A DNA stretch of 62,720 nucleotides from a virus. The DNA lies in IMG/VR virus record IMGVR_UViG_3300037242_000251, positions 1 through 62,720 of that record; one strand, given 5' to 3'. Position numbers and translations under genes: made by a program. Every line of letters starts with the position of its first letter. Position 1 is the first letter of the stretch. A model generated the notes under the pieces. That model was given only the letters and a program-made list of their open reading frames with translations, had not been told where the DNA came from and did no database searches. Below are positions 12,025 through 17,852 of the stretch, in pieces.

Positions 12025-13266
12025 ATGTCAATCGTATTTCGCATCATCGTCAGTTTGATCTTGCTGACAATCTTCGGTGCGTTCGCCGCTCTCTACCAGA
12101 GCGGCGAGACGATCGCGCTCGGCGAAGTCGCCGGGCATCAATTCGACAACAGCGACGTCGCCGCGCTTGGCGTGCAGGGCGTCTTTTCGTTCTCGCGTTT
12201 CCTACGCGCGTGGGGTTTCTTCATTGTGGTCGGTGCGCTCGCGCTAATCTGGTGGCGACCCGTATGGAAGTGGGCGACGACGCTCGCCGCCATGACGCTG
12301 CTCGTCGGCTTCATGGCTCCGCACTCGGCGCACGCCTACTACGACAAGACGGACTACGCCGAGGTCTATCTGGTGTTGCCGAACGAGTCGGCATTCTGGA
12401 TCCCCGACACCGGCGCCAATGCGACGACGCAGACCAACATGGATTCGGAAGCCTACTTCCAAGCCAACAAGATCGCGACGAAACGGTTCCAGATTCCCCA
12501 CGCCGTGCTGCCTGGATCTGGCTGGTTCTCCGGCTACTACGTCCCGACCGGGCGCCTGATCGTCGTCGATCGCACGCCGTACAACCGCGAGTGGACGAGG
12601 GATTCCGGTCGCGGCACGTCGGCCAAAGACGAATCGTTCCCCTGCCAGACCTCAGAGGGAATCAACGTCACCGTCGAGATCGGCATCGCCTCGTCCGTGG
12701 TCGAGCAGAACGCCGCGAAATTCCTCTACTACTTCGGCGTTCGCGCGCCGCAGGGCGACCGCAAAGACCCGGTTGTCATCTTCAATTCGGTTTACCAGGG
12801 GCGGTCCTTGGCCGAAGTGATGGATGGCGTCGTGCGCGGTAAGGTCTCGGCGCTCGTCTGCGCGGAGATCGGCGCTCGCACACTCGACAAAGCGAACGGC
12901 GAGATCAACGCCATCATGGCGAAAGTGCAGGACAACGTCGCCGCGTTCCTCGACACGCGAGGAATCACACTCGACTACGTCGGCTGGGCTGGCACGTGGT
13001 CTTTCGACGCCCCCATCCAGGACGCGATCAACCGCCGTTACGTCTCGACGCAGGACAAGATCGTCGCCGAGACGCTGCAGCCCTACGCGCAGACCATCAT
13101 GACGCTGGCTGTTGCCGACGGTATTCGCACGTCGGTCGGCAAGTTCGACGGCAAGCTCCCGCAGACACTTTCTGGCCTGTGGCTATTTCCGTCAAACTGG
13201 ATCGAGAGCATCGCCGGGGTCGCAAAAGCCGTAACTACGCCAGCCGCCGCTCCAATCGCCAAATGA
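12025..13266 (+). CDS. SPFH/band-7 domain membrane protein, 413 aa
   Basis: Two N-terminal membrane segments (about residues 4-26 and 57-82) are followed by a prohibitin-like region: YVPTGRLIVVDRTPYNREW, FPCQTSEGINVTVEIGIASSV and a helical NGEINAIMAKVQDNVAAFLDTRGITLDYV. SPFH proteins form oligomeric membrane scaffolds; HflKC, a host member, controls FtsH and affects the lambda lysis-lysogeny choice. AGGAG precedes the ATG. The stop codon overlaps the left target duplication of the inserted element, which leaves the protein intact. Confidence 0.8.
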   Translation: MSIVFRIIVSLILLTIFGAFAALYQSGETIALGEVAGHQFDNSDVAALGVQGVFSFSRFLRAWGFFIVVGALALIWWRPVWKWATTLAAMTLLVGFMAPHSAHAYYDKTDYAEVYLVLPNESAFWIPDTGANATTQTNMDSEAYFQANKIATKRFQIPHAVLPGSGWFSGYYVPTGRLIVVDRTPYNREWTRDSGRGTSAKDESFPCQTSEGINVTVEIGIASSVVEQNAAKFLYYFGVRAPQGDRKDPVVIFNSVYQGRSLAEVMDGVVRGKVSALVCAEIGARTLDKANGEINAIMAKVQDNVAAFLDTRGITLDYVGWAGTWSFDAPIQDAINRRYVSTQDKIVAETLQPYAQTIMTLAVADGIRTSVGKFDGKLPQTLSGLWLFPSNWIESIAGVAKAVTTPAAAPIAK

Positions 13267-13272
13267 TCTTCT
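13265..13272. repeat. Target site duplication, left
   Basis: GATCTTCT, repeated at 14238-14245. It overlaps the TGA stop (13264-13266) of the SPFH gene. Confidence 0.93.
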
Positions 13273-13289
13273 GGTAGTGTCTCAGTTTG

Positions 13290-13620
13290 AAAATTGATGG
13301 GCTTGACGCCCGCTCGCACGGCCCCGACGATGATATGCGCCTGTTTCACGACCGCAGGATTGATAGGCTTACCATCAGCTTCGGCCGCGACGACCGCTCG
13401 GCAAACGTCGATCAGAATCGAAACGTCGTACCCATGCACCTTCGTCAAGGTAGTGGAATTTCCGCCCGCGGAACGCGATTGAAATATAACGGGATTTGCC
13501 AATTTTTCCCGCAAAGTTCGCCCGACATAAGGCGCCATTCTTTTGCTGTTCACGAACTCCGGGAGGCGACTTCCGCTGACACCAAGACCTAGCGCCGCAC
13601 CCATCTTCGTCATTGCGAAG
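13290..13620 (-). pseudogene. Truncated P63C-domain gene fragment inside the element
   Basis: The minus frame reads GAALGLGVSGSRLPEFVNSK, MAPYVGRTLREKLANPVIF and VHGYDVSILIDVCRAVVAAE, then VKQAHIIVGAVRAGVKP. This matches the P63C domain pattern (conserved YGYDA-I-VC-V and QAHIIV). It lacks a natural start and ends at the element's terminal repeat, where the frame runs on into phage sequence. Captured host DNA rather than a working gene. Confidence 0.65.
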
Positions 13621-13791
13621 AACGTTGGTGACCATGCACGGGCGAAGCCGGAGACCCCCCGGCTTCGGTTTGGTCTCCGGGTAATAGGCGGTGACGATGT
13701 CGTATGCGGCAGGCGGGCGGTCAACCCATTTTGCGCTTATCGGGGTCGCGGACGTAGCCATCGATAATTGTCCAATGCCCCTTAGACATCG
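13600..13791 (-). pseudogene. Gene fragment, possibly PemK/MazF-like N-terminus
   Basis: In a different frame from the P63C fragment, the minus strand reads AKWVDRPPAAYDIVTAYYP, ETKPKPGG and LRLRPCMVTNVLRNDE. The pattern of a lead-in followed by KPGPK-LRP-LV resembles small PemK-type proteins. Similarity stops near 13620, where the P63C fragment begins in another frame, so two fragments appear joined. The family assignment is a guess from a short stretch. Confidence 0.4.
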
Positions 13792-13942
13792 TCTCCGCAG
13801 CCGCAGCGCGGAGTTGAGCAATTCCTTCCGGCGTTACGTCATCGTCGTATTGGAAGGCCTCCGGCGGGCAGGGGGGAGAGCCCTCATAGCGATGGTCGCT
13901 CTTCTTCCCTGCGGGGGGGCGCCTACGAAGAAACGACAGCAT
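13721..13942 (-). CDS. Passenger gene of the mobile element, 73 aa
   Basis: ATG 13942 (MLSFLRRRPPAGKKSDH) has GGAGG five bases upstream, so it is a properly built gene. It contains FQYDDDVTPEGIAQLRAAAAETMSKGHWTIIDG and overlaps the next fragment. Function unknown; if the fragment after it is a toxin, this might be an antitoxin partner, but nothing in the sequence proves it. Confidence 0.6.
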   Translation of the reverse strand: MLSFLRRRPPAGKKSDHRYEGSPPCPPEAFQYDDDVTPEGIAQLRAAAAETMSKGHWTIIDGYVRDPDKRKMG

Positions 13943-14237
13943 CGATACCTCCAAAGAGAGTAGCGGACCGACAGGCGCGAGCGGATTCGCTGACTGTCGC
14001 TTGATTGGTATTTTTTGTGGCTACGGTGGCATGGACGCCTGAACAATGGCTGAACCGCGTCCGCTCGTCTTGATATTTAAGACCTCCCGAGAAATTTTTA
14101 AGTGGGGGTGCGGCTTTTGCGGCACACCCTTTTTCAGATTTGGTAGGCCACTTCCGTCAATCTGACAACTCGGGTCGCCCCCGCTTGTTCCCAGCCTCTA
14201 TGCATAAAAATTCAGTTCGGCAAACTGAGACACTACC

Positions 14238-14245
14238 GATCTTCT
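14238..14245. repeat. Target site duplication, right
   Basis: GATCTTCT, identical to 13265-13272, directly outside the right inverted repeat. Confidence 0.93.
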
Positions 14246-14285
14246 TAGGCGACTTGCACCGAACACGATTCTATCACAAAGTAAT

Positions 14286-15565: not shown

Positions 15566-17697
15566 ACGTTCAGCCAAAGATCAGCCCGTTCCAGCACCTG
15601 TGGTCGCTCGGCTACCGCAGGCTCATCCCGATCATCCCACCCAACGCCCCGGTCACGCCGACATGCGCCGTCGGCAAGAAGCTGGCGAAGGGTAAGGACA
15701 CCCGCGGCAAAACGCCGGGCAAGCGGCTGGCATCGGGCGAATGGACCTCAATCACCGACTGGCAGACGCTCGAGCCGACCGAGGCGGACCTGTCGGCGTG
15801 GGCCCAAATGGGCGCCAGCGTCGGCGTCAAATGCGGCCGCGGTGTCGTGGCGATCGACGCCGACTGTCTCAACCCTGAGCACGCCGCGCTGGTGCGCGCC
15901 GAGGTCGAAAAGTACGTCGGTCCGACGCCGGTGCGGATCGGCCGAGCCCCCAAGGCGCTTTATCTCTGCCGCAGCGAGGGCGACGTCTCGCTTGCCTACG
16001 CCAGCGTCAACTATGGCGACGGCGCCGAGAAGGTGGAGATCCTGAGCGGGCAATTCGTCGCCGAGGGCCTCCACCAGTCCGGAACGCCCTATCGCTGGGA
16101 GAGTGGCGTCTGGCCGTTCGATAAGCTGCCGATCGTCTCAACGCAGGCGCTGTCCGACCTGATCCGGTCGCTGGAGCGCCAGCTACCCAAAGCCAAGCGC
16201 AGCGTCGAGCTCTCGGCGCTGGCGCCGGTCGACCAGAAGTTGCTGGTGGGCAGCGTCGACATCATGCGCGAGGCCGTGCGGCTAACGCCGAACAGAGTGG
16301 AGCGGCGATCAAAGTACGTCGAGTTCGGCACGGCGTTGAGGGCGGCCCTGCCATTCAACGAAGACGCCGCTCACGAGATGTGGGTCGACTGGTGCGGGCG
16401 CTGGGAAGACGGCGAGAACGACGCCGAGACGATCGAAGTCGACTGGAAGTCGTTCAAACCGCCACACAGCATCGGCGCCAATTACATCTACGACATGGCG
16501 TTCACGGCGACCGAAGGCGCATTCCGCGGTCGCGCGCATGATCTGATGCGGCGCTTTCATGAGCGCCCAGCCGAAAGCGAAGCCGCCAAGTCGGAGTTGT
16601 TTGTCGTCAGCGCCGCCAGCCTGACCGGAGCCGAACCGCCGGCGCAGGCGTGGCTGGTGCGGGACCTTATTCCGACGCGCAACGTGACGATGCTGTCGGG
16701 CGACGGCGGGGCGGGCAAGAGCCTCCTGGCGCTGCAGCTAGCCGCCTCGGTTGCCGCCGGCGCCAACTGGCTCGGAATACCACTTGAGCGTGGGCGGGCC
16801 CTGTTCCTGACGGCCGAGGACGAGATCGAGGAGCTGCACAGGCGGCTGAGCGCGATCGTGCGCGGGACGGCAGCGTTCAAGATGGCGGACCTGACTGGGC
16901 TGAGCCTTGTTTCGCTCGACGGACAGGACGCCGTGATCGCAGCGCCGTCAGGCAAGGACGGGTTGCTGAAGCCGACCGAGATGATGACGCGAGTTCGCCA
17001 GACCGTGAAGCGGCTGGCGCCGACGCTGGTGGTTCTGGACACGCTGGCGGATTTATTCGGCGGCGATGAGATCAAGCGCGTCCATGCGCGCCAGTTCATC
17101 GGAATGCTTAAGGGGCTGTGCAACGAGTTTGGGACGACCGTGCTGCTGCCGGCGCACCCATCTCTGAGCGGCATGAGCAGCGGCTCGGGGATGTCGGGCA
17201 ACACGGCATGGAACAACTCGGTACGGTCGCGGCTGTACCTCGAGCGTCGTTTCGGAAAGTCAGAACAGGATGAGCCCGATCCTGATGTTAGAGTGCTGAC
17301 GACGAAGAAGGCGAACCGGGCCCGCCGCGGCGTGCGCTACGTGCTGCGGTGGTCAGCGGGGCGCTTCGTGCGCGAAGGCGTGGAGGTGGAATCGCGAGAG
17401 GCGGATCAGGAACGCGAAATCGAGTCGATATTCATGCGGGTGTTCGATGAGACAATCGACAGCGGGCGCACTTTATCGCACCTCGTTACAGCGCCGAACT
17501 ACGCTCCGAAAGTCGCCGAGGCGCACGCGATCGCCGGCGGCGTGAACCAGGCTCGCTTCACTGAGGCGATGGAGCGCCTGTTCGCTCGTCGCGCGATTGA
17601 GGTCAAGGAGGTCGGACCACCGTCTCGGGTCCGCAGGACGGTGGTTAGAACAAAACGTATCGTTGAAGATAGCGAGGAGAATGACCTATTCGGATGA
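15562..17697 (+). CDS. Primase-polymerase / RepA-like helicase fusion, 711 aa
   Basis: The N-terminal half resembles the bifunctional prim-pol fold (GVKCGRGVVAIDADC, acidic pair IDAD near residue 97). The C-terminal half is a RecA-fold helicase: Walker A LSGDGGAGKSLL (about residues 378-389), then LFLTAEDEIEELHRRL and Walker B LVVLDTLADLFGGDE. It primes and unwinds DNA for the family A polymerase. It is translated from a GTG coupled to the leader peptide and followed by repeats that could be its origin. Confidence 0.88.
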   Translation: MNVQPKISPFQHLWSLGYRRLIPIIPPNAPVTPTCAVGKKLAKGKDTRGKTPGKRLASGEWTSITDWQTLEPTEADLSAWAQMGASVGVKCGRGVVAIDADCLNPEHAALVRAEVEKYVGPTPVRIGRAPKALYLCRSEGDVSLAYASVNYGDGAEKVEILSGQFVAEGLHQSGTPYRWESGVWPFDKLPIVSTQALSDLIRSLERQLPKAKRSVELSALAPVDQKLLVGSVDIMREAVRLTPNRVERRSKYVEFGTALRAALPFNEDAAHEMWVDWCGRWEDGENDAETIEVDWKSFKPPHSIGANYIYDMAFTATEGAFRGRAHDLMRRFHERPAESEAAKSELFVVSAASLTGAEPPAQAWLVRDLIPTRNVTMLSGDGGAGKSLLALQLAASVAAGANWLGIPLERGRALFLTAEDEIEELHRRLSAIVRGTAAFKMADLTGLSLVSLDGQDAVIAAPSGKDGLLKPTEMMTRVRQTVKRLAPTLVVLDTLADLFGGDEIKRVHARQFIGMLKGLCNEFGTTVLLPAHPSLSGMSSGSGMSGNTAWNNSVRSRLYLERRFGKSEQDEPDPDVRVLTTKKANRARRGVRYVLRWSAGRFVREGVEVESREADQEREIESIFMRVFDETIDSGRTLSHLVTAPNYAPKVAEAHAIAGGVNQARFTEAMERLFARRAIEVKEVGPPSRVRRTVVRTKRIVEDSEENDLFG

Positions 17698-17705
17698 GAG
17701 TGCGG

Positions 17706-17720
17706 TATACGTTTTGTTAT
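17706..17720 (+). promoter_or_regulatory. Operator variant with TATAAT
   Basis: TATACG-TTT-TGTTAT; the right arm runs into TATAAT (17718-17723), the -10 position seen at the other sites. The -35 is weak. It is nine bases past the primase-helicase stop. Confidence 0.5.
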
Positions 17721-17726
17721 AATTGT

Positions 17727-17840
17727 CTTCCAACCCCTTCCAACCCCCCTTCCAACCCCTAAAAACGGTCTTCCAACCCCCCTTGCAACCCCCCTTGCAA
17801 CTCCCCTTCCAACCCCCTTCCAACCCCCTTCCAACCCCCC
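17727..17840. repeat. Tandem CTTCCAACCCCC repeats, candidate iterons / G-quadruplex region
   Basis: Nine imperfect 10-19 bp units of TTCCAACCCCC (two read TTGCAAC) lie in tandem. The complementary strand is a series of G4-G6 tracts separated by short linkers, able to form G-quadruplexes. They follow the primase-helicase gene directly and precede two hairpins and an operator, so replication origin iterons are the leading idea. A minus-strand frame through them encodes only Gly/Val/Arg repeats and is not a gene. Confidence 0.7.
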
Positions 17841-17852
17841 TACTCACACCCC

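Follow-up and report, generated by a model that had tools for sequence, protein, structure and literature searches.

How did a short mobile unit with perfect ends, no transposase, and pieces of genes come to stand in a phage genome? The DNA analyzed here, which we refer to as the window and which spans the whole of a metagenomic virus record, is 62,720 bp long, and the unit lies directly 3' of a phage gene for an SPFH/Band 7 protein (Table 1). The first-pass annotation of this DNA had proposed a gene-capturing element resembling the Pack-type elements of eukaryotes. We consider it likely that the unit is, rather, a non-autonomous cassette (mobile insertion cassette [MIC]) of an IS1-related family of passenger transposons, which suffered internal deletion and was mobilized in trans.

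The structural part of the earlier description was borne out. The length of the unit, the perfection of its inverted repeats, and the intact target duplication are exactly as claimed, and the duplication does overlap the TGA of the SPFH gene without harming it (the stop codon, positions 13264 to 13266, is undamaged). Nor is a transposase encoded: an HMM built from the transposases of the family detected none in the window, and Pfam returned no match to the open reading frames of the element. The G+C content of the element is 56.6%, versus 62 to 64% in its flanks, and an 18-bp end with three or fewer mismatches is expected by chance only 0.01 times in the window. The two ends differ in their subterminal sequences. 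The left one is of the kind that we call end B (its first 35 bp are of this type), and its subterminal stretch agrees at 17 of 18 bases with end B of one relative (L045), compared with a mean of 7.1 of 18 over 280 ends. The right subterminal sequence is identical at 17 of 23 positions in L025 and L100 and at 14 of 23 in L082, the mean over the 280 ends being 5.1.

Table 1. Positions of the mobile unit, its parts, and its neighbors in the window, and of selected genes and elements in relatives (locus handle before the colon)
Feature	Position	Strand	Remark
SPFH/Band 7 phage gene	12025-13266	+	413 aa, intact; Pfam PF01145, E 1.7e-8
Left target-site duplication copy, 8 bp, GATCTTCT	13265-13272	.	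overlaps GA of SPFH stop codon
Mobile unit	13273-14237		965 bp; perfect 17-bp inverted ends; transposase-less
Left terminal inverted repeat, 17 bp, GGTAGTGTCTCAGTTTG	13273-13289	+	seen in the sequence
Left subterminal sequence AAAATTGATGGGCTTGAC, end B type	13290-13307	+	precedes the small companion ORF in relatives
P63C-family middle fragment	13302-13604 (aligned 13317-13604)	-	lacks 5' and 3' parts; extends into left end
Second gene, 5' part (MATSATPISAKWVDRPPAAYDIVTAYYPETKPKPGGLRLRPCMVTNVLRN)	13612-13761	-	cut at P63C junction
Short gene	13721-13942	-	intact; 73 aa from ATG; overlaps second gene
GGAGGT, Shine-Dalgarno-like site	13947-13952	-	before ATG of short gene; seen in the sequence
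Right subterminal sequence CCGAACTGAATTTTTATGCATAG	14198-14220	-	common to other ends of the family
Right terminal inverted repeat, 17 bp	14221-14237	-	100% complementary to left copy
Right target-site duplication copy GATCTTCT	14238-14245	.	identical to left copy
N6/N4 DNA methyltransferase phage gene	14414-15382	+	322 aa; Pfam PF01555, E 2.4e-48
Transposase-less element, lone SAM methyltransferase	L230:5395-6162		768 bp
Transposase-less element, lone RibD_C-type gene	L226:5192-5930		739 bp
Antitoxin/defense-type passengers	L198:4110-4580, L012:5552-6703, L223:4629-5702, L110:5145-6230, L073:1775-3016		
Small companion ORF, examples	L195:4690-4923, L198:1740-2030, L077:11278-11592, L045:1369-1614		

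Transposition of the element as a unit is well supported, and exact 8-bp duplications recur on the same ends elsewhere. Comparison loci were picked by exact 17-mer match in viral contigs and bacterial genomes and are not a random sample. Among the matches listed, 67 of 110 inward-facing pairs of ends have identical 8-bp flanks, compared with 0 to 1 pairs in controls with flanks shifted by 1 to 50 bp, and an 8-bp duplication is therefore a genuine signature of transposons with these ends. Its length is exactly 8 bp, with flank identity extending to 9 bp in 1 of the 110 pairs among the matches listed. Phage contigs and bacterial genomes contain at least 66 further distinct elements that have the same ends and exact 8-bp duplications. 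The first-pass annotation had proposed searching for transposase-bearing relatives with the same ends and for elements that share the ends and carry different cargo, and both kinds were found. Among the 66 listed, 31 encode a full transposase, 16 a broken or partial one, and 19 none, and different cargo includes a SAM methyltransferase (L230) and a RibD_C-type gene (L226). The hosts among the matches listed include Proteobacteria, Bacteroidota, Acidobacteriota, Nitrospirota, and Planctomycetota. The window element is one among many transposase-less members of this family.

An assembly chimera or chance repeats, with no real insertion at all, could be suspected in a metagenomic record for which an empty site was not found. 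The exact 20-mer joining the two flanks is absent from the viral contigs, and no phage with an SPFH gene at the same place was found. The nearest phage (L257), with a DNA polymerase 76% identical, has neither the SPFH gene nor the element and therefore offers no clean empty site. However, the homology to this related, element-free phage resumes at about positions 14249 to 14264, a few bases past the right duplication, and the combination of perfect ends and an exact 8-bp duplication is that of the at least 66 other, independent elements, so that we regard an artifact as extremely improbable. Open reading frames made of regular short repeats occur in both phages (window, 17499 to 17847, minus strand, and L257:11611-13203; GVGRGVARGV... 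and AVGSAVRSAV...).

The complete relatives encode a single-ORF transposase of about 280 to 330 aa. Its best Pfam family is IS1 (PF03400, above the cutoff), and the NCBIfam model transpos_IS1 matches it with an E value of 1e-18, which is below that model's 100-bit cutoff. Judging from these matches, the transposase appears to be divergent and distantly related to that of IS1. The ends point the same way: those of Escherichia coli IS1A (NC_000913.3) begin GGTAATGACTC and GGTGATGCTGC, versus GGTAGTGTCTC here, and the start GGTnnTG is common to both. The target duplication of IS1 is 8 to 9 bp, and the relatives, with 8 bp, resemble the IS1 family in this respect also. In contrast to IS1, which has overlapping insA and insB genes, the relatives have one ORF of about 300 aa, an organization that occurs in some members of the IS1 family, and they are 1.3 to 4.2 kb long, with passengers and a small companion ORF. 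A subgroup of long IS1 elements goes by the name ISMhu11; our literature search returned no paper naming it.

Elements of the IS1595 family and the transporter ISs carry passenger genes and generate 8-bp duplications, and the present family is like them in both respects. For these IS-like elements, see Siguier et al. 2009 (cited in PMC3129680). An IS1595 transposase (L004) near a matching plasmid end in Methylocystis rosea had offered a lead, which was dropped when tblastn with this transposase matched no element of the family. Unlike the IS1595 family, the relatives with these ends gave no match to an IS1595-type transposase in that search.

Between the ends of the window element, one piece belongs to the P63C family. 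It covers positions 85 to 177 of about 346 in our own P63C HMM (E 2.4e-14) and positions 94 to 175 of 338 in phrog_2384 (E 1.3e-10), and by tblastn (E 5e-6) it matches a protein of Pseudomonas phage Lodos that is annotated as P63C. The earlier assignment as P63C-like was thus right as to family; what is present is the middle of the protein, and the PF10546 domain itself is absent from the fragment. In relatives with P63C, the P63C gene is divergent from that of the transposase and convergent with the small ORF, which adjoins end B. This layout is kept in every such element with flanking genes (L095, L126, L195, L198, L208, L077, L013, and L104), and two partial ones (L062 and L175) fit it as far as their sequence reaches. 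The fragment in the window likewise reads toward a type B end. Its codons GGC GTC AAG overlap the CTTGAC of the left end, and the junction between P63C and the end therefore falls within a short stretch common to both.

The remaining cargo is the short gene, which would encode 77 aa if started at an upstream TTG, and the truncated second gene that it overlaps. A relative of the short gene occurs in a phage contig (L275), with 47% identity over 53 aa, including 14 consecutive identical residues (PPEAFQYDDDVTPE). The beginning of the second gene, with its overlap, is shared there as well (WVTRPPSAYDM versus WVDRPPAAYDI). Because this contig repeats the short gene together with the overlapping start of the second gene, the two form a genuine overlapping two-gene unit, and their order is the usual order of toxin-antitoxin pairs. 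The similarity to the second gene ends after about 19 residues in the contig (L275:499-730), a pattern like that of an orphan antitoxin. No model in Pfam, NCBIfam, or PHROGs backed the suggestion that the second gene is PemK-like. No other convincing relative of either gene turned up in plasmids, in phages, or in about 1,200 sequence searches of genomes (the samples partly overlap); matches in genomes proved on inspection to be noise, and a similarity of the second gene to formate dehydrogenase of a Limimaricola plasmid was a chance local match.

One could imagine from these features that the unit is a selected cassette, retained because an intact antitoxin-like short gene is of use to the phage or lysogen, with the broken genes as debris. 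The short gene is intact and has a GGAGGT site, and both the overlap and PPEAFQYDDDVTPE are kept in the second phage, where the match to the second gene also breaks off. However, there are only two examples, neither with a functional homolog, and no family model indicates the role of a toxin or antitoxin, which makes selection for the short gene rather doubtful. Such selection would be compatible with an origin by deletion; the two are not exclusive.

How the fragments came together is best approached through the relatives. P63C is rare outside the family: 6 of 289 alphaproteobacterial genomes had it. Of seven places with P63C, one (L269, target duplication CATATCTC) is within such a transposon and the other six are without such ends. 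In contrast, 5 of the 31 full elements among the matches listed carry a near full-length P63C gene. Random capture would rarely pick up P63C, and more rarely still in this orientation and at this end. Since P63C recurs as a passenger of the autonomous elements, oriented as here and at the matching end, a relic of deletion is a simpler explanation than pickup from a host. Products of comparable deletions are seen elsewhere in the family. L030 (454 bp) retains positions 72 to 147 of P63C, standing against the terminal inverted repeat, together with the C terminus of the transposase, and this element, of which L083 and L112 (396 bp) are relatives, is an independent deletion product of the same sort as the window element.

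We propose that the parent was laid out like L195, with end A followed by a passenger, a transposase in the opposite orientation, P63C, the small ORF, again opposite, and end B. In L195 the passenger and P63C read in one direction, the passenger pointing inward from the far end, and the mirror image of this arrangement is how the short and second genes are ordered and oriented in the window. One deletion would have taken out the transposase along with the 3' part of the second cargo gene on one side of it and the 5' part of P63C on the other, and another the 3' part of P63C together with the small ORF, closing at the short CTTGAC match beside end B. With two intact ends, the remnant could then have been mobilized in trans by the transposase of a full relative in the host, and insertion 3' of the SPFH gene would have duplicated the 8 bp. 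Placing the breakpoints to the exact base would require donors; a parent carrying both the short gene and the second gene was not found, nor did the plasmids, phages, viral contigs, and genomes sampled yield a donor of either fragment.

Under Pack-type capture, template switching or abortive gap repair would have brought fragments of two genes, unrelated to each other and of host or phage origin, into a small element with these ends, which subsequently moved. Such an origin might be read from the two truncated genes with their out-of-frame junction, from transposase-less relatives with single ordinary genes (the methyltransferase and RibD_C-type elements in Table 1), and from the one relative of the short gene, which is in a phage and has no such transposon ends near it. 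P63C, too, may possibly have been captured from elsewhere, since it also occurs outside transposons, as in phage Lodos, where it is outside any such element. Nevertheless, P63C is an established passenger of the autonomous parents, with the same orientation and type of end, which would not be expected of chance capture, and no donors were found in the plasmids, phages, viral contigs, and genomes sampled; for these reasons the gene-capturing origin of the first-pass annotation appears quite unlikely. Passengers must first have been acquired by an ancestor of the family through capture, and what we doubt is a fresh capture by the small unit.

Origin by deletion places the element among known kinds. 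MICs consist of IS ends around passenger DNA, encode no transposase, and can be moved in trans by the cognate transposase (PMC3129680); MIC231 of Bacillus cereus is one (De Palmenaer et al. 2004, cited in PMC3129680). The window element resembles them in having no transposase, ends common to transposase-bearing relatives, a target-site duplication, and passenger content, namely, an intact short gene and two gene fragments. It differs from MIC231 in its IS1-related rather than IS231 ends, its cargo of mostly gene fragments, and its location in a phage. With eukaryotic Pack-type elements it shares a non-autonomous nature and gene fragments between terminal repeats, but deletion from a parent that bore passengers accounts better for its P63C fragment; Pack elements thus serve as an analogy only, and the bacterial MICs are the closer known kind. 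Unlike a strict noncoding MITE, the element has an intact short gene with a conserved relative. As MICs and passenger-bearing ISs are already described (PMC3129680), we assign the element to a known kind. An apparent prokaryotic Pack element may accordingly have arisen from a passenger transposon by deletion, and this affects counts of gene capture in bacteria.

The wider family, with its conserved companion gene and cargo of antitoxin and defense type, is the more interesting lead. Its ends, companion gene, and defense-like cargo occur in many phage contigs and several bacterial phyla, and it provides a testable route by which toxin-antitoxin and defense-type genes could enter phage genomes. 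The passengers of complete elements include P63C, XRE/ImmA-IrrE-like proteins, SocA/Panacea antitoxin-like proteins, ClpP or SDH proteases, AAA/STAND ATPases, DinD-like proteins, and NYN proteins, and a second ORF in L126 resembles a DNA methylase. Antitoxin- or defense-type domains are frequent among them (SocA/Panacea, XRE with IrrE [M78], and AAA/STAND ATPases). Among the transposase-less elements, L109 has an intact DNA methylase gene, and those with the lone methyltransferase and RibD_C-type genes are the family's best candidates for true gene capture. Tentatively, and with low confidence, we suggest that this is a largely unremarked IS1-related family, spread across phyla and common in phages, which routinely moves antitoxin, protease, STAND/AAA, and methylase genes, that its companion is a transposition or end-binding factor, and that its cassettes spread orphan antitoxin-like genes.

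The companion is an ORF of about 80 aa that adjoins one end in many elements and matches no Pfam family. The CTTGAC-type motif goes with the end next to this ORF (Fisher P value of 7e-5, from contigs that are related and samples that are not fully independent). Its protein has the C-terminal motif KGGxARAxxLTPEERSEIAKKAAxxRW, which recurs at the N terminus of the P63C passenger proteins.
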